A stretch of DNA of 64,000 nt, taken from positions 1 to 64,000 of the IMG/VR virus record IMGVR_UViG_3300036715_001290; one strand, 5' to 3'. The first letter of the stretch is position 1. Every line of letters starts with the position of its first letter. Source of the stretch: a virus. Shown here piece after piece: positions 22,941 through 58,740 of this stretch. Position numbers and translations under genes: made by a program. A model generated the notes under the pieces. That model was not told the origin of the DNA, made no database searches, and saw nothing but the letters and a program-made list of their open reading frames with translations.

Positions 22941-23915
22941 ATGTATGAAGTTCAATCACTCCTTGAAGCCGCTATAAATCAAAAAGGCATTCTTAAAGGA
23001 AATGAAGTTATGTTTTGGTGTCCAAAATGTAATAAGTCATTTTCTAATAAAAAGATGTCTATAAATATAAATCCAAAATCTCCAAAATATGGACATTGGC
23101 ATTGTTGGGTTTGTGAAAATGATAGCGGTACTCGTGGTAAACGAATTAAAACTTTTTTTGATTTATATAAAGTAGATCCTACATATTATCATAAGTTAGA
23201 TTATGATTATGTACAAAATAATGGTTCACCAAAAATACCAGATCATAGACAACGATTAGTAGTAAATTTACCTGCCGAATTTATATCACTTAAGAATCCA
23301 ACAAAAGGTGATACATATAAAATAGCTATGGCATATTTGAAAAAACGTAATATTACATATTCTGATATAATAAAATATAATTTAGGATATTGTGATGTAG
23401 GCCCATTTGCAAATATGATTATTATTCCATCATATGATTCATTTGGTAAATTGAATTATTTTGCTGGTAGATCATTAGAAAAATACACTCGCTTCAAATA
23501 CAAATATCCTGAGATTGATAAAAGTTCAATAGTATTTAATGAACTATTTATAAATTGGGATGAACCTGTGGTTTTGGTTGAAGGACCATTTGATTTTTTA
23601 GCAACTAAAATAAATACTATTGCATTATTAGGTAAAAGTATTTGTGATGATATGAAAGAACTGTTGGCTGAAAAACGTATAAAGGAAATATATTTATGTT
23701 TAGATTCGGATGCAATGAAAACTGCAATAAAGCATACTGAGTACTTTATTAAAAGAGGTATAAAAGTATACTTTATTGAACTTGATAAAAAGGATCCAAG
23801 TGAATTAGGATTTAATAAAATGAAAGAATATTTATTATCAGCAACACCGGTTGGTGTAAATGATTTTAGGAAAATGTTAATGCTCAAACTAAAGGCAACA
23901 AATAAGGTTAATTAA
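22941..23915 (+). CDS. DnaG-type DNA primase
   Basis: 324 aa. The N-terminal zinc-binding domain is visible as CPKC (27, 30) and CWVC (55, 58) with His52 and His54 between. The TOPRIM catalytic domain includes VVLVEGPFDF (~211-220, metal-binding Glu) and LCLDSDA (~253-259, DxD). It makes RNA primers for lagging-strand synthesis; T4's counterpart is gp61. No helicase domain is fused, so a separate helicase should lie outside this window. It ends one base into the next gene. Confidence 0.88.
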   Translation: MYEVQSLLEAAINQKGILKGNEVMFWCPKCNKSFSNKKMSININPKSPKYGHWHCWVCENDSGTRGKRIKTFFDLYKVDPTYYHKLDYDYVQNNGSPKIPDHRQRLVVNLPAEFISLKNPTKGDTYKIAMAYLKKRNITYSDIIKYNLGYCDVGPFANMIIIPSYDSFGKLNYFAGRSLEKYTRFKYKYPEIDKSSIVFNELFINWDEPVVLVEGPFDFLATKINTIALLGKSICDDMKELLAEKRIKEIYLCLDSDAMKTAIKHTEYFIKRGIKVYFIELDKKDPSELGFNKMKEYLLSATPVGVNDFRKMLMLKLKATNKVN

Positions 23916-26900
23916 TGGATTATATTAAATTAAATATAAAAAGAGATGTTAAAAAAATAATTCATCTTGCTGATATTCATATAAGACAATATAAAAGATA
24001 TGAAGAATATGAAGAAGTATTCAAGGAAATGCATAATGAAGTTAAAAAACATTATGATGAAAATACATTAATTGCCGTACTTGGAGATGTTGTTCATTCT
24101 AAAAATGAACTATCACCTGAGTTAGTTGAATTAACTGCTTATTTTCTAAAATCATTATCAGATATAGGTCCTACAATATTAGTTGCAGGAAATCACGATG
24201 CAAACCTTAATAATAAAAATAGAATAGATTCATTAACACCAATTGTTAATTTAATAAGTAATGATAATTTATTTTATTTAAGATCATCTGGACTATACAC
24301 GGTTGGTAATTTATGTTTTTCGGTTATGTCAGTTTTTGATGAAATGACTCATTATATAAAAGCTAAAGATATTGATGACAAATATGTAAAGATTGCATGT
24401 TATCATGGTCCTCTTAATGGTGTAAAGAATGATTCTAATTATACACTATCAGGTAAGATGACTAATATGTTTTTTACAGGATATGATTCGGTATTATTAG
24501 GAGATATACATAATAGACAAATAGTATCAAAAAAACCACTGATAGTTTACCCTGGTAGTTTATTATGCCAAAATTATGGTGAACATCCAACGGATCATGG
24601 ATTTGCTGTACATGATATTGATACTATGACATGTACATTTGTTGATGTTAAAAATGATTATAGTTATTATACAATAGATGTTGATGATTCTTTAGTTATA
24701 CCAAAAGTTAATATACAATCAAAACATCCAAGAATACGTGTTAGATTTAAAGATGTTAAGTTAGAATTGATTGCTGGAACTTTAGATGTTATAAAAAGAA
24801 CATATCATCCATCGGAATTAATATATGTTAAAAATAATACGGTAGCAAATAATTCAGTTTTTAGTAAAAATCAAATATCTGATATTTCAAATATTAAAAA
24901 TGTTGAAGTACAAAATAAATTTATACAACGTTTTCTAGATAAAAAATATAAATTATCTAAAGATATCGTTCAAGGCATATTGGATGTAAATCAAGAGACA
25001 AATGCTAATGTAAAGTTAGAAACATTCTTTAACACATCAATGTGGAATCTTTTAGAATTTCGTTGGTCAAACATGTTTTCTTTTGGTGAAGATAATTATA
25101 TTAACTTTACTGATATGAATGGTGTTTATGGTTTATTTGGTGCTAATGCTACAGGTAAAAGTAGTTTTAGTGAATCATTAGCTTTTGCATTATTTGATAA
25201 AACATCAAAAGAATCTAAAATGATTAATTTATTAAATGTTAGAAAACAATCTTTCAAATGTTCAATAACGTTGGAACATTGTGGTAAAAAATATTTAATA
25301 AGAAGGGTTGGTACAAAAAATAAAAAAGGTACCGCCTTAAAATATGAAATTGATTTTTTTGAATATGAAGGTGATAAATTAGTATCATTAAATGGTGAAG
25401 ATAAATGGGGTACCAATAGAAATATAAGATATATAATTGGTGACTTAGATGATTTCTTATTATCATCATATAGTGTACAAAATGATAATCTAGGATTTGT
25501 TAATAAATCAAATTCAGAAAGAAAAGATATATTATTAAAATTCTTAGGATTAAAAATATTTGACTTATTATTTGATATTGCAAATGTAAAGTTAAAAGAA
25601 TATAATGTATTATTACGTGACATTGATATTGATGCAATTTTAGATGATAAGTTAAAATTAGAAAAGCAAATAAGTATCATACAAAATGATATAGATAAAG
25701 CAAATGAATCTAGTATAAATGTACAACAACAAATAATAGATACTAAAGATAATATACTTAATACCCATAAAACTCTTATACAAATTAATGAAAATGAAAA
25801 TGTTATTGATACTATGCAAATTACAAATGATTTGGAAGCATCAAAGTCAAAATTAAGTTCATTGGAAATTCAATTAAAAGATAATGAAATTAAGATATTA
25901 AAATATAAAGAAGCATATGATATTGCTCAGGATGCTTTAGTTGATAAAGACATTATAATTAAAAAATATCAAGAATATTTAATTGATGAATCACAGTACA
26001 AATCGCTTAAAAAACAGCTTGATATTAATAAGATTGATTTAGATAAATTAGAAAAAGAAGTTGCAACCGTTCATGAACTAGAATATGATCCAAATTGTGA
26101 ATTTTGCCAAAAGAATTTTGGTTATCATTTTGATTCCGTTACATCAAATTATAAGTCACGTAAAGAACGTTATAACGATATGCAAAATGAATGTAATGAC
26201 GCATACACTCGTATGATTAGTCATGATAATATAGTTGACCAATACGGTACCGTTAATTCTATAATAGATAAAGTCCCAAGAATAACAAAGGAAATTTCAT
26301 TACTTAATGATTCAATTGCAGCTACTAAAGCAGCTATAATAAAACATGAAAAACAAATAATAGATTGGACAAATACTTTATCAGAATCAAAAGCAATTGC
26401 GGCAGCACAACTAAATAATAAGAATGCAAATGATAAAATAAAAATATTAGAAAATAGATTAAAAGATGAAGAGTCTAGACTAAATGTATTAAAGACTAAA
26501 GTCATGGATAGTCTAATGAAAATGAATCAAGTATCATCAAAAATAGATGATTATTCTAAAGATATTGATAAACATGCAAATATGGCCTTTAACAAAGAAT
26601 GTCAATCAATGTATTGTGATATTGTTAAAAGAGATGGTATACCTTATGAAATAATTTTAGATATCTTACCTCAAGTCGAAGTTGAAGTTAATAATATATT
26701 ATCACAGATTGTTGATTTTTCTTTACTTATATTACCTGATGAAAATAAAAACATCAATATTTATATAGTATACGATACGGAGCGCTATTGGAATCTTGAT
26801 CTTGGTAGTGGAATGGAAAAGTTTATTTCATCATTAGCATTAAGAATTGCATTAACAAATCTATCAAATTTACCAAGACCTAACTTCTTAATAATTGATG

Positions 26901-27100
26901 AAGGTTGGGGTAATCTTGATAGTGAAAATATAGGTTCAATACAAAGGTTATTTGATTATCTTAGAAGCAAATATAAGTTTATATTAGTTATAAGTCATAT
27001 TGATTCGATAAAAGATTCCGTAGATAGTATAATAGATATTAAATTAAAGGATACTTTTAGTAAAATAGAATATGGCAACACTAGCACAACAATTACTTAA
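23915..27100 (+). CDS. Mre11-Rad50 (gp47-gp46) fusion recombination nuclease
   Basis: 1061 aa single chain. Residues ~14-240 are an Mre11/SbcD metallophosphoesterase (LADIHI, LGDVVHSKNE, GNHDAN, CYHGP, LGDIHNRQ). Residues ~385-1061 are Rad50/SbcC: Walker A GANATGKSS (~408-416), long coiled coils, zinc-hook CEFC (~728-731), signature-like DLGSGMEKFISSLALRIAL, Walker B LIIDEG (~993) and a switch His in ISHID. In T4 these are two proteins (gp47, gp46) that resect DNA ends to start recombination-dependent replication. The fusion forces 1:1 stoichiometry. Confidence 0.93.
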   Translation: MDYIKLNIKRDVKKIIHLADIHIRQYKRYEEYEEVFKEMHNEVKKHYDENTLIAVLGDVVHSKNELSPELVELTAYFLKSLSDIGPTILVAGNHDANLNNKNRIDSLTPIVNLISNDNLFYLRSSGLYTVGNLCFSVMSVFDEMTHYIKAKDIDDKYVKIACYHGPLNGVKNDSNYTLSGKMTNMFFTGYDSVLLGDIHNRQIVSKKPLIVYPGSLLCQNYGEHPTDHGFAVHDIDTMTCTFVDVKNDYSYYTIDVDDSLVIPKVNIQSKHPRIRVRFKDVKLELIAGTLDVIKRTYHPSELIYVKNNTVANNSVFSKNQISDISNIKNVEVQNKFIQRFLDKKYKLSKDIVQGILDVNQETNANVKLETFFNTSMWNLLEFRWSNMFSFGEDNYINFTDMNGVYGLFGANATGKSSFSESLAFALFDKTSKESKMINLLNVRKQSFKCSITLEHCGKKYLIRRVGTKNKKGTALKYEIDFFEYEGDKLVSLNGEDKWGTNRNIRYIIGDLDDFLLSSYSVQNDNLGFVNKSNSERKDILLKFLGLKIFDLLFDIANVKLKEYNVLLRDIDIDAILDDKLKLEKQISIIQNDIDKANESSINVQQQIIDTKDNILNTHKTLIQINENENVIDTMQITNDLEASKSKLSSLEIQLKDNEIKILKYKEAYDIAQDALVDKDIIIKKYQEYLIDESQYKSLKKQLDINKIDLDKLEKEVATVHELEYDPNCEFCQKNFGYHFDSVTSNYKSRKERYNDMQNECNDAYTRMISHDNIVDQYGTVNSIIDKVPRITKEISLLNDSIAATKAAIIKHEKQIIDWTNTLSESKAIAAAQLNNKNANDKIKILENRLKDEESRLNVLKTKVMDSLMKMNQVSSKIDDYSKDIDKHANMAFNKECQSMYCDIVKRDGIPYEIILDILPQVEVEVNNILSQIVDFSLLILPDENKNINIYIVYDTERYWNLDLGSGMEKFISSLALRIALTNLSNLPRPNFLIIDEGWGNLDSENIGSIQRLFDYLRSKYKFILVISHIDSIKDSVDSIIDIKLKDTFSKIEYGNTSTTIT

Positions 27101-30795: not shown

Positions 30796-31089
30796 ATGTT
30801 TGGATTCGTTTCTGAGTTTTTAAAGAAAGAAAATGCAAAAAAATTAGCAACTATGCTAATCGTATCCGTTCTTTCTATGATATTTATTGTTTATAATTTT
30901 GTAGAATTTTCTACATTTCTTATAACGTTCGTTAAAGCAATTGCAGGTATTATGATATTTTGGTGGGTAGATGAATACTTACTAAAAGGTGTTGATACAA
31001 TTCAAGAAATATTAAAAGGAAATATTGCATATGCGTTATTCTTATTTTCTATCGCTGCTATTATTGTTGGCGCTATTGTCGCTGGGTAA
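30796..31089 (+). CDS. Probable holin
   Basis: 97 aa. ATG 30796 is chosen over an upstream ATG at 30727 (inside the previous gene) because TGGAGTTATATT precedes it. Three hydrophobic helices are visible (~19-36, ~41-58, ~76-95), with charged KKENAKK and DEYLLKGVDTIQE segments between. Size, topology and its position overlapping a CHAP endolysin make a holin likely, but no family signature is recognised. Its last helix is encoded by DNA that also encodes the endolysin signal peptide. Confidence 0.6.
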   Translation: MFGFVSEFLKKENAKKLATMLIVSVLSMIFIVYNFVEFSTFLITFVKAIAGIMIFWWVDEYLLKGVDTIQEILKGNIAYALFLFSIAAIIVGAIVAG

Positions 31090-31585
31090 TATCCCACAAA
31101 AAAGCACAACACCACATGTAGATACTGCATTAACATATGTAGGAACTATGGAAGCAACTGGTCATAATGACGGTCCAGTAGTTGAAAAATTCTTACATAG
31201 TGTAGGACGCCATAAAGGAGATTCTTGGTGTGCCGCATTTGCTTCATATTGCATGCAAGCAGCTCACGTAAAAGCACCTACATTAAAAAGTGGTATGGCT
31301 CAAGCATATTTTAATAAAAAATCAATTAAAACAAATGATGTATTAATTGGTAAAAAGAAAATAACTAAAGGTTATTTAGTTATTTGGAAACATGGTAATA
31401 CAATGTCAGGTCATATTGGTATAGTTACTGGTGATTGGACAAATAAAAGTGGCCCAACAGTTGAAGGAAATACATCAGGACCAACAGGCAGTCAATGGGA
31501 CGGTGGTGGTGTATACAAAAAGATTAGATATTTACAACCAGCAAATGCATTCAGAATTATAGGATTCTCGGAGGTTACTTATTAA
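31031..31585 (+). CDS. Endolysin with CHAP amidase/peptidase domain and signal peptide
   Basis: 184 aa from ATG 31031. The N-terminus MRYSYFLSLLLLLALLSLGN is a typical export signal or SAR helix. The CHAP domain shows the catalytic Cys in GDSWCAAFASYC (Cys67), His128 in GHIGIVTG and the acidic/Asn partner in EGNTSG (~146-148). CHAP enzymes cut peptidoglycan peptides or the amide bond. AAAGGAAATATTGC precedes the ATG. The start lies 59 bases inside the upstream holin-like gene. Confidence 0.82.
   Translation: MRYSYFLSLLLLLALLSLGNIPQKSTTPHVDTALTYVGTMEATGHNDGPVVEKFLHSVGRHKGDSWCAAFASYCMQAAHVKAPTLKSGMAQAYFNKKSIKTNDVLIGKKKITKGYLVIWKHGNTMSGHIGIVTGDWTNKSGPTVEGNTSGPTGSQWDGGGVYKKIRYLQPANAFRIIGFSEVTY
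31570..31583 (+). promoter_or_regulatory. Ribosome binding site that selects an ATT start codon
   Basis: GGAGG (31570-31574), then a 6-base spacer, then ATT (31581-31583), which overlaps the TAA of the endolysin gene. This is among the best Shine-Dalgarno sequences of the window, and no ATG, GTG or TTG exists in that frame until 31959. Confidence 0.6.
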
Positions 31586-33380
31586 ACACAAGAAATATGT
31601 TGATGCTATAGTTAAAAGAATTATAGCATCAAATGAATATAAATTAATTCTAGAATCTACCAAAAAAGATTATGTTGTTACATACCCAGGTAGATTTCAA
31701 CCGTTTCATAAAGGTCATTATGAAACATATAAATACTTATGTAATAAATTTGGTTCTAATAATGTATATATATGTACATCAAATTCAACTAACGGTAATA
31801 ATTCCATATTAAATTTTGCTCAAAAAAAGGCAATAATACAATCATATGGTATACCTGCATCACATATTATTCAATGTAGAGTTCCATTACAACCAACCGA
31901 ATTATTAAATAAATTTCCAAAAAGTGTATCATTAATTATTGGTACTGGTGATAAAGATATGAATCGCCTTGCTGGAAAATACTTTAAGCCATTTAAGAAT
32001 ACTGATGATATGTTACCGTTTGAAAAAGCAGGATATATGATAAGTATACCAACTGTTAAAATAAGTGCAACTGATGTTCGTGATGGTATAAAATCTGGAA
32101 AAATTACATTAAAGAATATAAGCCAATATATGAATCCTAATATAACACAACAAACTTATGATTTACTTAAAGGTAAATTATCAGAAGGTGGTGGTTATGG
32201 TCATATGCAACATATTTATGAAGATGCAAATTTAACATTTGGTGATATTAAAAAAATAATTGATTTAGGTTTAGGTGGTAAATTAAAATCCGTTACTGAA
32301 AAAACTGACGGTCAAAATTTAATGATTACTGTTGTTAATAATGAAGTAAGAGCGGCTCGTAATAAATCACATATTAAAAATTTTGCAAAAGATTCATTAT
32401 CTATTGATGGTTTATTTAAGATGTTTGCCGGCCGCGGTGATATATCAAATGCATTTTCATTTGCTATGAATGATATGGCGGCCGCATTAAATGCATTAAG
32501 TAAAGCAGAAAAAGAAGATATCTTTAAAAATGGAAAAAGATTTTTATCATTTGAAGTAATATATCCAAAAACAACAAATGTTATTCCTTATGGAATGAGT
32601 ATGTTAGTTTTTCATGGTATATATGAATATAATAAAGATGGTGATAGAATTTCAGAAGTTAAAACAGGTGCAGGAAAATTATATAAATTAATTCAAAATG
32701 CAAACGCACATGTACAAAATACATTCACAATTAAACCAAAAGCTGACATTCATTTGAATGCTATAGAAAATGGACAAAATCTTAAAAAGGATTTATATAA
32801 ACAATTATCAGCGATACAAGGTAAATGTGGAGCAAAGGATAGTGATAAACTATCAAAGTATTTTGAATTTAATTGGAGACATTATATTACATCATTAAAT
32901 ATAAACGATGATAAAGTAAATGAGATTTTATTAAATCGTTGGTTATATGATGATAAATCAACATCATTAAATGATATTAAGAAAATGGTTGATGAAAAAC
33001 AATTTTCAGATATTAAGGCAACGGAAGGTGCTAAAGTCAAAACATTAAATAATACGTTTGTTGAACCAATACGTAATATGACTATGAATCTTGGTATTGC
33101 AATACTTAGTAATATGAAAAGTGTATTGACCGTTAACCCAAGTAAGGCAATTCAATCACTACAAGATGAAATAACAAGTACTATAGCGGCTATAAAGGCA
33201 TCTAAAGATGATAGCCTTATAAATAAGCTTGATATTGAATTAACAAAATTAAGAGGTGTAGGTAACATCGTATTACCAACCGAAGGAATTGTATTTACAT
33301 ATAAAGGCAATATTTATAAATTAACAGGAAGTTTCAACCCAATAAATCAAATATTAGGTATGTTGAAATATGCAAGATAA
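31581..33380 (+). CDS. Nucleotidyltransferase (HxGH) fused to a ligase-like domain, ATT start
   Basis: 599 aa if started at ATT 31581. N-terminal domain: YPGRFQPFHKGH with HKGH at 43-46 is the nucleotide-binding motif of NMNAT/cytidylyltransferase-type enzymes; ISATDVRDGI (~155-170) matches the ISxTxxR motif. C-terminal domain: EKTDGQN with Lys241 resembles motif I (KxDG) of ATP-dependent nucleic acid ligases, FLSFEV resembles motif III, and EGIV (~568) with YKLTG (~580) resemble motifs IV and V. The first ATG at 31959 would delete the HxGH site, which argues against it. Substrate unknown: NAD synthesis, RNA repair or capping are possible. Confidence 0.75.
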   Translation: MKHKKYVDAIVKRIIASNEYKLILESTKKDYVVTYPGRFQPFHKGHYETYKYLCNKFGSNNVYICTSNSTNGNNSILNFAQKKAIIQSYGIPASHIIQCRVPLQPTELLNKFPKSVSLIIGTGDKDMNRLAGKYFKPFKNTDDMLPFEKAGYMISIPTVKISATDVRDGIKSGKITLKNISQYMNPNITQQTYDLLKGKLSEGGGYGHMQHIYEDANLTFGDIKKIIDLGLGGKLKSVTEKTDGQNLMITVVNNEVRAARNKSHIKNFAKDSLSIDGLFKMFAGRGDISNAFSFAMNDMAAALNALSKAEKEDIFKNGKRFLSFEVIYPKTTNVIPYGMSMLVFHGIYEYNKDGDRISEVKTGAGKLYKLIQNANAHVQNTFTIKPKADIHLNAIENGQNLKKDLYKQLSAIQGKCGAKDSDKLSKYFEFNWRHYITSLNINDDKVNEILLNRWLYDDKSTSLNDIKKMVDEKQFSDIKATEGAKVKTLNNTFVEPIRNMTMNLGIAILSNMKSVLTVNPSKAIQSLQDEITSTIAAIKASKDDSLINKLDIELTKLRGVGNIVLPTEGIVFTYKGNIYKLTGSFNPINQILGMLKYAR

Positions 33381-56372: not shown

Positions 56373-58676
56373 ATGTCTGATAAACTAATGTCACCTGCTG
56401 TATTTACATCAGAGAATGATAAAACTTACTTACCTCAAGGTGTAGTTGATATTTCAACAGCATTTATAGGTACTACAAAATATGGTAAAGCATTTGTGCC
56501 AACCCAAGTTAAATCACCTCAAGAATTTGATAAATTATTCGCAGATGATAATATTTCATATACTGGTTATGCAGTAAAATCATATCTTAAAAATGCAGCT
56601 TCAGCCCTTGTTGTTAAAGTACTTGGTAATGAAACATCTTCATTAGCATGTTATACATTTGGTGGTGCCGCAAGTGCATCATTTGCTGCTACAAATCCTC
56701 AAGTTGTATTATTACCAACATATAATAGTTCAGCATCAGTAATGACAGGTTTATGTACTACATCATCAAATCAAACATGGGTTCTTACTTCAAGTGCAGG
56801 TAATGTAACCGTATCATTAGCAGATCCTACTTCACCAAATTACATTACAAAAGTATTTGGCCAATCACCTAATTCAAATTTTAACACACCACAAACAATA
56901 ACAGACCAATGGTATGTATATCAATTATACAATGTCGGTACTATAACAACAACTGGTAGTTTTAATTCAGGTACTTTAGGTATTAGTGCAGGATATACAA
57001 ATGCAACTACACCTTATATTACATCACAATTAAATAACGGTAATTCTATTCCATTATTTAAGTTCGGAACTATATTTGATGGTGATTCATCAAATACTTT
57101 AGTTAAAGTATCAATTTGTGATATTAAAAAACCAGCAAGTTCAACTGAATATGGTACATTTACTGTATTAGTACGTGATTTTACAGATACCGATCTTAAT
57201 CCAAATGTATTAGAATCCTTTACAGGTTGTACATTAGATCCTGAATCTATAAATTATGTTTGTGCTCGTATAGGTACACAAACTGAAACTATTAATAATG
57301 CAGGTAAAGTATTAATTGGCGGTGATTGGGAAAATAAATCTTCATATATTTATGTTATTCCTTCTCCACAATTAAAAGATGTACAAAATACAATTGTACC
57401 TTTTGGTCATTCTGCATATACATGGACTTTTATAAGTGGAAGTAACATGTCAAATGTACTTACATCAACATCTTCATTGTATACACAAATTCAAGGTACA
57501 TCTGATACATGGAATCCTCGTGTATATTTTGGTTTGAATTATAGTAATCCAGATGTTAACAATTTATCAGCTGCATTATTAACTAGTTCATTAGGTTCAA
57601 CCGTATATAATTTTAACTTAGATAACTATTCAGTTCATCCTAGTTCAAGTTATGCAACAGGTTCATTGTCAGGAAGTGGTGTTAATTCAGCATTCTTACA
57701 ATTTACAGTTGCATTCCAAGGTGGTTATGACGGTATGCCTTTTAATAGAGTTAGAAACACTGATGAAAATATTACTAGTGCAAATGCATTTGGTTATAAC
57801 TTAACTAATATGTCAAGCCCAGGTAGTACTCAATTCAAATTAGCATTGAATACTCTTCAAAATGCTGATGATTATGATATTAAAGAATATGTTCTCCCAG
57901 GTATTAATGACACAGATCATTTTGCTTTAACAACATATGCAAGAACAATATCATATTTAAGAGGTGGAGATTGTTTTGCTATAATTGACCCTTCAGGTTT
58001 ATCAGCATCTATAGATACTGCAATTGCAGCTACAACTTCAATTGATACAAACTATTCAGCAGGATATTATCCTTGGGTTAAAGTTATAGACCCATCAACA
58101 AGAAAACAACGTTGGTTACCAACCGCAGCTATTCTCCCAGGTGTGCTTGCATACAATGATAGAGTAGGTGGTGAATGGTGGGCACCAGCAGGTTATAATC
58201 GTGCAGGTATTGATAATGCTAAAGGTGTTAAAGATAGATTAACAAAAACAGACCGTGACGTATTATATAATAATAGATTAAATCCTATTATATATTCTAA
58301 AGGTAAGGTTGTTGTTTTTGGTCAAAAAACACAACAAAAGAAAGCATCACAATTAGATAGAATTAACATTAGACGTTTGCTTATAAAATTGAAAAAATTT
58401 GCAGCATCAACAAGTGTTTATTTAATGTTTGATCCTAACACAAAGGCTACGAGAGATTCATTCTTATCTATGGTTAATCCATTCTTAAGATCACTTGTTG
58501 AAAAACAAGGTTTATTTTCTTTCCAAGTTGTAATGGATGAAACAAACAATACACCTGATGTTATAGATAGAAATACTATCAAAGGTGCATTCTATATTAA
58601 ACCAACACCAGATTCTGAATATTTTGAGCTTGAGTTCAATATATTAGCAAATGGTGCTACATTTCCTAATCAATAA
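56373..58676 (+). CDS. 18: Tail sheath protein (gp18-like)
   Basis: 767 aa, near T4 gp18 length plus an insertion of ~100 residues. N-terminal PAVFTSENDKTYLPQGVVDI and FIGTTKYGKAFVPTQVKSPQ with a following EFDKLF; the C-terminal domain includes RLTKTDRDVLYNNRLNPI and later IRRLLIKLKKFAASTSVYLM and FDPNT, which are family hallmarks. It polymerises around the tube and contracts on infection. Preceded by the strongest SD in the window (AAAGGAGGACT). Confidence 0.95.
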   Translation: MSDKLMSPAVFTSENDKTYLPQGVVDISTAFIGTTKYGKAFVPTQVKSPQEFDKLFADDNISYTGYAVKSYLKNAASALVVKVLGNETSSLACYTFGGAASASFAATNPQVVLLPTYNSSASVMTGLCTTSSNQTWVLTSSAGNVTVSLADPTSPNYITKVFGQSPNSNFNTPQTITDQWYVYQLYNVGTITTTGSFNSGTLGISAGYTNATTPYITSQLNNGNSIPLFKFGTIFDGDSSNTLVKVSICDIKKPASSTEYGTFTVLVRDFTDTDLNPNVLESFTGCTLDPESINYVCARIGTQTETINNAGKVLIGGDWENKSSYIYVIPSPQLKDVQNTIVPFGHSAYTWTFISGSNMSNVLTSTSSLYTQIQGTSDTWNPRVYFGLNYSNPDVNNLSAALLTSSLGSTVYNFNLDNYSVHPSSSYATGSLSGSGVNSAFLQFTVAFQGGYDGMPFNRVRNTDENITSANAFGYNLTNMSSPGSTQFKLALNTLQNADDYDIKEYVLPGINDTDHFALTTYARTISYLRGGDCFAIIDPSGLSASIDTAIAATTSIDTNYSAGYYPWVKVIDPSTRKQRWLPTAAILPGVLAYNDRVGGEWWAPAGYNRAGIDNAKGVKDRLTKTDRDVLYNNRLNPIIYSKGKVVVFGQKTQQKKASQLDRINIRRLLIKLKKFAASTSVYLMFDPNTKATRDSFLSMVNPFLRSLVEKQGLFSFQVVMDETNNTPDVIDRNTIKGAFYIKPTPDSEYFELEFNILANGATFPNQ

Positions 58677-58701
58677 TTGAAAAAGATAAAATAAAAATGA
58701 T

Positions 58702-58740
58702 AAAATATGCTATAGTAAAAATATTATAGCATATTTTATT
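58702..58740 (+). terminator. Terminator-like 13-bp AT hairpin after the sheath gene
   Basis: AAAATATGCTATA (58702-58714) pairs perfectly with TATAGCATATTTT (58725-58737), loop 10 bases, then ATTTACTTTTT. Very similar to a hairpin at 31600-31632. Confidence 0.6.

Follow-up and report, generated by a model that had tools for sequence, protein, structure and literature searches.

Where does translation begin in the gene that ends at 33380? In the window analyzed here, the 64,000-nucleotide stretch that opens a 140-kb virus record of IMG/VR, the frame of this gene is open from 31563 to the TAA stop at 33378 to 33380 and is bounded upstream by an in-frame TAG at 31560 to 31562. The earliest in-frame ATG, GTG, or TTG is the ATG at 31959, whereas an ATT at 31581, close to the upstream end of the open frame, would give 599 codons up to the TAA. 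The start-less open lead of 396 nt is unique among the genes of the 140-kb record, in a count that omits a 258-nt lead at 64261 that begins at a piece boundary; the second-longest lead of this kind within the window is 81 nt. The sequence features discussed below make ATT 31581 the most likely start, which would give a product of 599 residues. The features that bear on this question are as follows.

31031 to 31585, + strand: CHAP-domain (endolysin-like) gene with an N-terminal signal-like segment (PF05257, E=4.5e-7; endolysin PHROGs)
31570 to 31575, + strand: Shine-Dalgarno (SD) sequence GGAGGT, with a 5-nt spacer to ATT 31581 (duplex, -10.7 kcal/mol)
31581 to 31583, + strand: ATT start codon proposed from the sequence; its final T is the first base of the CHAP TAA
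31581 to 33380, + strand: full gene, 599 aa, predicted HxGH nucleotidyltransferase fused to a ligase-like nucleotidyltransferase
31600 to 31632, + strand: inverted repeat, predicted to form a 14-bp hairpin (one G-U) with a 5-nt loop, its first base at +20 from the ATT (-15.8 kcal/mol)
31683 to 31718, + strand: YPGRFQPFHKGH, first nucleotidyltransferase active-site motif (HxGH), lost with a start at 31959
31959 to 31961, + strand: first in-frame ATG, codon 127; has no SD, falls within the Rossmann domain, and is rejected as a start
32061 to 32081, + strand: ISATDVR, second nucleotidyltransferase motif (ISxTxxR)

An ATT start had been proposed in an earlier note on this DNA, and the coordinates on which it relied are confirmed: the frame continues past 31581 with no ATG, GTG, or TTG before 31959; GGAGG lies 6 bases ahead of the ATT, at 31570 to 31574; and the ATT overlaps the preceding stop (ATTAA), the CHAP gene running from ATG 31031 to a TAA at 31583 to 31585. 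The note was also right that a start at 31959 would cost the protein its nucleotidyltransferase active site, since YPGRFQPFHKGH is upstream of that ATG, and that gene callers would miss the N-terminus, since the first canonical start is past the active site.

The 126 codons that would be skipped by a start at 31959 are clearly coding, judged by their composition. By codon score, frame 0 of 31581 to 31958 reaches 0.96 bits/codon, compared to a gene mean of 0.88, and the first 35 codons from the ATT alone score 0.95; the other forward frames of this region score -0.43 and -1.49 bits/codon, with 8 and 20 stops. Mean identity to 18 homologues is 44% for residues 35 to 126, 27% for residues 127 to 198, and 40% for residues 203 to 599, and G37, R38, F39, P41, and H46 of GRFQPFHKGH are invariant. 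The AF2 model has a Rossmann core from residue 31, with pLDDT of about 90 and residue 127 in the middle of the domain; its first 28 or so residues are of low confidence, and the same stretch is variable among homologues. Because ISATDVR falls after codon 127, a start at ATG 31959 would cut the Rossmann domain. Codon usage, conservation, and modeled fold all indicate that the N-terminus is translated.

One could still imagine that synthesis begins at ATG 31959, so that the protein has 473 aa and lacks the N-terminal active site, or that the 5′ part is a pseudogene that decayed after an ATG was lost. Certainly, 31959 is the first canonical codon in the frame, and some members of the family match the C-terminal part only, one of them (L007) from residue 177. 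However, ATG 31959 has no SD, and the 373-nt gap that such a start would leave is wholly open and coding. The part upstream of 31959 is the best conserved, its catalytic residues are intact, and it is identical in four contigs. The C-terminal-only members begin near residues 177 to 200, whereas 31959 cuts the Rossmann fold. We therefore regard this start as highly unlikely. The earlier note had held that homologues without the HxGH region would speak against the long form; this objection failed, as the C-terminal-only matches break near residue 200, not 127.

If the lead is translated, the choice is among its near-cognate codons. A position-weight SD model was too unspecific to decide this (the ATT stood at the 69th percentile of ATG starts, and among all ATT codons about 5% score above the median), and so exact anti-SD complementarity was used instead. 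The GGAGGU anti-SD duplex ranks 3rd among 155 starts in the record, and GGAGG occurs 22 times on the + strand of the 140 kb. By hand arithmetic, the chance of a properly spaced SD before one of the roughly 7 near-cognates in the 43-codon lead is about 0.005. No SD precedes any of the other candidate starts (ATA 31608, ATT 31620, ATA 31623, ATT 31647, and ATG 31959).

We collected 98 distinct N-termini of homologues, and in 71 of them an in-frame stop lies no more than 60 codons from the motif; among these 71, the start is ATG in 64 and GTG in 6, and the only one with neither is the ATT gene itself. The earlier note had asked whether homologues begin with ATG at the same residue. An ATG (64/71) or GTG (6/71) shortly before the motif is indeed the rule, but the residue differs, with leaders of 12 to 44 residues before the motif across homologues and 34 in the ATT gene. 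The closest homologues are about 35 to 45% identical, and many begin some 10 residues later. No close relative that keeps or replaces the ATT was found in the collections searched; when closer relatives were sought, the best TerL match was about 48% identical, and the portal search in bacterial genomes yielded none. The ATT is the same in four near-identical contigs; distant homologues have ATG or GTG at other residues. In one subgroup of homologues (L096, L117, L121, L127, and L143), the usual ATG has been lost and there is only a GTG at VDKP, preceded by an AGG-type SD in some and by none in others.

The homologues do raise the possibility that another near-cognate in the leader is used. The most plausible one is ATA 31608, which lies 25 residues before the motif and lines up with the ATG of many relatives; many relatives begin 22 to 27 residues before the motif. 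Against this, GGAGGU is at the right distance for ATT 31581 only, the other near-cognates having no SD; ATA 31608 is within the 14-bp hairpin; and other relatives have leaders of 31 to 44 residues. A start at such a codon seems distinctly unlikely.

Could an ATG be hidden by a sequencing or assembly error? The ATT is one base from ATG, and the corrected sequence, ATGAAACAC (M-K-H-K-K), would resemble a normal start. A G at the third base of the ATT would, however, also extend the CHAP gene by seven codons, and four contigs of separate IMG/VR records agree on ATT: the three others show 0, 1, and 0 differences along 7.8 kb, none of which falls at the start, and a search with a pattern that left the third base of each codon free matched only the same contigs. 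The identical ATT in three further contigs makes an error very unlikely, and we put its probability close to nil. The earlier note had named such an error as a risk, and no sign of one was seen.

A different way to use the open lead would be a CHAP-nucleotidyltransferase fusion, made if ribosomes shifted by +1 where the CHAP gene ends (UAU UAA), somewhat as in prfB, with the SD upstream and the hairpin downstream as aids. An SD-like GGAGG lies a few bases 5′ of the stop, as it does in prfB, and a strong hairpin follows. However, by general pairing rules, the P-site tRNA-Tyr cannot re-pair after a +1 slip from UAU to AUU, and the hairpin, which starts 14 nt past the stop, is farther away than frameshift stimulators usually are. 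The N-terminal extensions of ten homologues showed no CHAP domain, and the fusion protein would bear a secretion-type signal. We consider such a fusion very improbable. Read-through of TAG by the cta tRNA of the phage, extending the frame 5′ of 31560, was also considered and rejected; the upstream frame is noncoding across the CHAP gene and contains two more TAGs.

What, then, would initiation at ATT 31581 produce? Judged by its motifs, the product joins an NMNAT-like HxGH nucleotidyltransferase to a polynucleotide-ligase-like (KxDG) domain. The HxGH and ISxTxxR motifs are present at residues 37 to 46 and 161 to 167, and the N-terminal part matches PF01467 (E=1e-4) and PHROG 395, cytidyltransferase, and gives profile matches to NadM/NMNAT. 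With the AF2 model, Foldseek returned the adenylyltransferases NadD, NadM, and CoaD with a probability of 1.00. The C-terminal part carries the following motifs.

32298 to 32318, + strand: EKTDGQN, ligase-like motif I, with K241 as the presumptive adenylylated lysine (EK-DGQ invariant in 31 members)
33279 to 33296, + strand: TEGIVF, ligase-like motif IV; E, G, and F invariant
33318 to 33320, + strand: ligase-like motif V lysine, K580

In 31 aligned members, EK-DGQ, ARxK, E, EG--F, and K-TG are invariant, a pattern characteristic of ligase-like nucleotidyltransferases; ligase motifs I (KxDG), III (E), IV (EGxVF), and V (K) are all present, with key residues invariant in the same set. Foldseek matches to RNA ligases are weak (8uce, E=3e-4, TM of about 0.23), and the Pfam RNA_ligase family (PF09414) matched only 1 of 41 members (E=0.003). 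The protein thus shares GRFQPFHKGH, ISxTxxR, and the Rossmann fold with NadM/NMNAT and CoaD of the HxGH family (PF01467), but has a ligase-like domain in place of Nudix. With the ATP-dependent RNA ligases (PF09414 and relatives), it shares the KxDG, RNK, E, EG-VF, and K-T motifs but differs in its very low identity, poor overall superposition, and N-terminal nucleotidyltransferase fusion. Relatives are abundant in viral contigs, which account for at least 581 of 600 candidate stretches, and some homologues have extra N-terminal kinase/zeta-like, exonuclease, or ParB-like parts. No NadV-type partner for NAD synthesis was found in the record. Given the large tRNA array in the genome, one may reasonably guess at a role in RNA or tRNA repair.

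We imagine that a CAU initiator tRNA, supplied by the host or drawn from the two initiator-type tRNAs of the phage, would read AUU through its first two bases, so that the first residue of the 599-residue product would be fMet. From the geometry, it is plausible that initiation is coupled to termination of the CHAP gene. With UAA 31583 in the A site, UAU 31580 would be in the P site, 1 nucleotide from AUU, and ribosomes fresh from CHAP termination could supply much of the initiation at this codon, being held by the SD behind them and perhaps also by the hairpin from +20. As in other AUU genes, a low output would be expected, perhaps a tenth of what an AUG gene gives, together with sensitivity to IF3. 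From precedent, we infer that IF3 may tune the level of this protein; a search of the 140-kb record turned up no IF3 gene.

To our knowledge, AUU starts have been proven for few bacterial genes, and we found none in a phage in the open-licence papers searched. AUU starts as such are already known, and the gene described here is a further case. The earlier note had taken infC to be the known example, which was too narrow; Escherichia coli pcnB and Staphylococcus aureus cvfC1 also start with AUU (PMC13009471). In S. aureus, the AUU of cvfC1 functions together with an extended SD, and non-canonical starts give about 10% of AUG expression (PMC13009471); IF3 represses non-canonical starts (PMC5472188). 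The phage gene would resemble infC, pcnB, and cvfC1 in its AUU start, in a low output (inferred for the phage gene), and in an N-terminus missed by gene callers; its SD is also strong, as strong or extended SDs are reported for infC and for cvfC1 in S. aureus (PMC13009471, PMC5472188). It differs from all three in being a phage gene, and what is new here is that the last T of the ATT is common to the upstream TAA and that a 14-bp hairpin begins at +20. In addition, the cvfC1 start is conserved in relatives, whereas conservation of the phage ATT was not seen.

Two other systems are instructive. In sigR of Streptomyces, as may be the case here, a non-canonical start reduces the amount of one protein in comparison with its operon neighbor, but the codon is GTC rather than ATT, and repression by IF3 has been demonstrated (PMC5472188). 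Re-initiation after an upstream stop relies on initiator tRNA and IF2; an SD raises it, and, where there is none, excess IF3 lowers it (PMC2268962). At the M13 gene V-VII junction, too, the start is near the stop of the upstream gene and terminated ribosomes can re-initiate, although the M13 reporter junction has an AUG without an SD and the phage gene an AUU with a strong one (PMC2268962).

The hairpin downstream of the start might contribute as well; neither it nor the initiator-type tRNAs of the phage figured in the earlier note. Folding of 31530 to 31640 gave a z-score of -3.4, due to the 14-bp stem at 31600 to 31632. Across the record, very stable 45-nt windows are most frequent at an offset of +20, where they occur in 5 of 156 genes, compared to a mean of 0.84 at offsets of +60 or more. 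These five starts are at 1964, 20717, and 31581 in the window and at 89434 and 121269 farther along the record, with hairpins beginning at about +14 to +28. All five overlap or abut an upstream stop (distances of -8 to +1), and four have no good SD, the fifth being ATT 31581. The association is at P=0.08 for coupled starts and at P=0.016 for starts both coupled and deficient, a class defined post hoc, and so the link is suggestive only. In Mel-JY01, 2 of 3 hairpin starts abut the upstream stop, one of which clearly has no SD. The Flavobacterium phage showed no peak of stable windows at +10 to +20.

One can envision that a strong hairpin within the coding sequence of the next gene, beginning near the front of the ribosome (at about +14 to +28), detains a ribosome that has just terminated and so favors re-initiation on a start weakened by the lack of an SD or by AUU in place of AUG, helped by the phage initiator tRNAs, with the ATT gene being one of five such junctions. 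This idea is speculative, and we think it rather doubtful. We know of no description to date of such a device at coupled deficient starts. Alternatively, the coding hairpin may act in RNA processing or at an mRNA end; as it has no U-run, we do not read it as an intrinsic terminator. A twin hairpin, GCTATAGT..ATTATAGC with a U-rich tail, is found in an intergenic position at 58699 to 58740, after a gene ending at 58676. Its core, GCTATAGTAAAAATATTATAGC, nearly equals that of the coding hairpin at 31605, and the twin itself is probably a terminator.

The phage carries about 38 tRNAs and a tmRNA at 108 to 132 kb of the record (L088 and L089). One CAT tRNA (L088:10048-10122) has, by eye, C1xU72, A11:U24, and GGG:CCC in the anticodon stem, and we take it to be an initiator tRNA from these hallmarks. 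Another (L088:9152-9226), with U1:A72, U29:A41, and relaxed G:C pairs in the anticodon stem, also by eye, is presumably initiator-like. A phage initiator tRNA with an anticodon altered for AUU was considered and rejected; both initiator-type tRNAs carry CAT, and the Ile tRNAs (gat and tat) lack initiator features. One elongator-type CAT tRNA is also part of the array, as is an amber (cta) tRNA, yet TAG is still the stop in 11 of 111 longer ORFs. A tRNA-like match at L088:13064-13172 is 109 nt, above normal length, possibly reflecting an insertion or intron.

A well-supported phage AUU case would show that automatic annotation silently shortens phage enzymes, and it would provide a natural test of relaxed start-codon choice by terminated ribosomes. 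The phase of the ATTAA overlap is impossible for NTG starts because no stop codon begins with G; non-canonical starts may therefore hide at other tight gene junctions. Hairpins right after coupled starts, for their part, offer a concrete and cheap hypothesis for re-initiation.

Two further loci in the window drew our attention. The ORFs at 1310 to 1636 and 1518 to 1967 overlap by about 119 nt in different frames, and the second has only a GTG without an SD, possibly indicating a frameshift or an unusual start. At 23915 to 27097, a single 1,061-aa protein has SbcD-like matches in its N-terminal part and SbcC-like matches in its C-terminal part and is apparently a natural fusion of palindrome-specific nuclease subunits.
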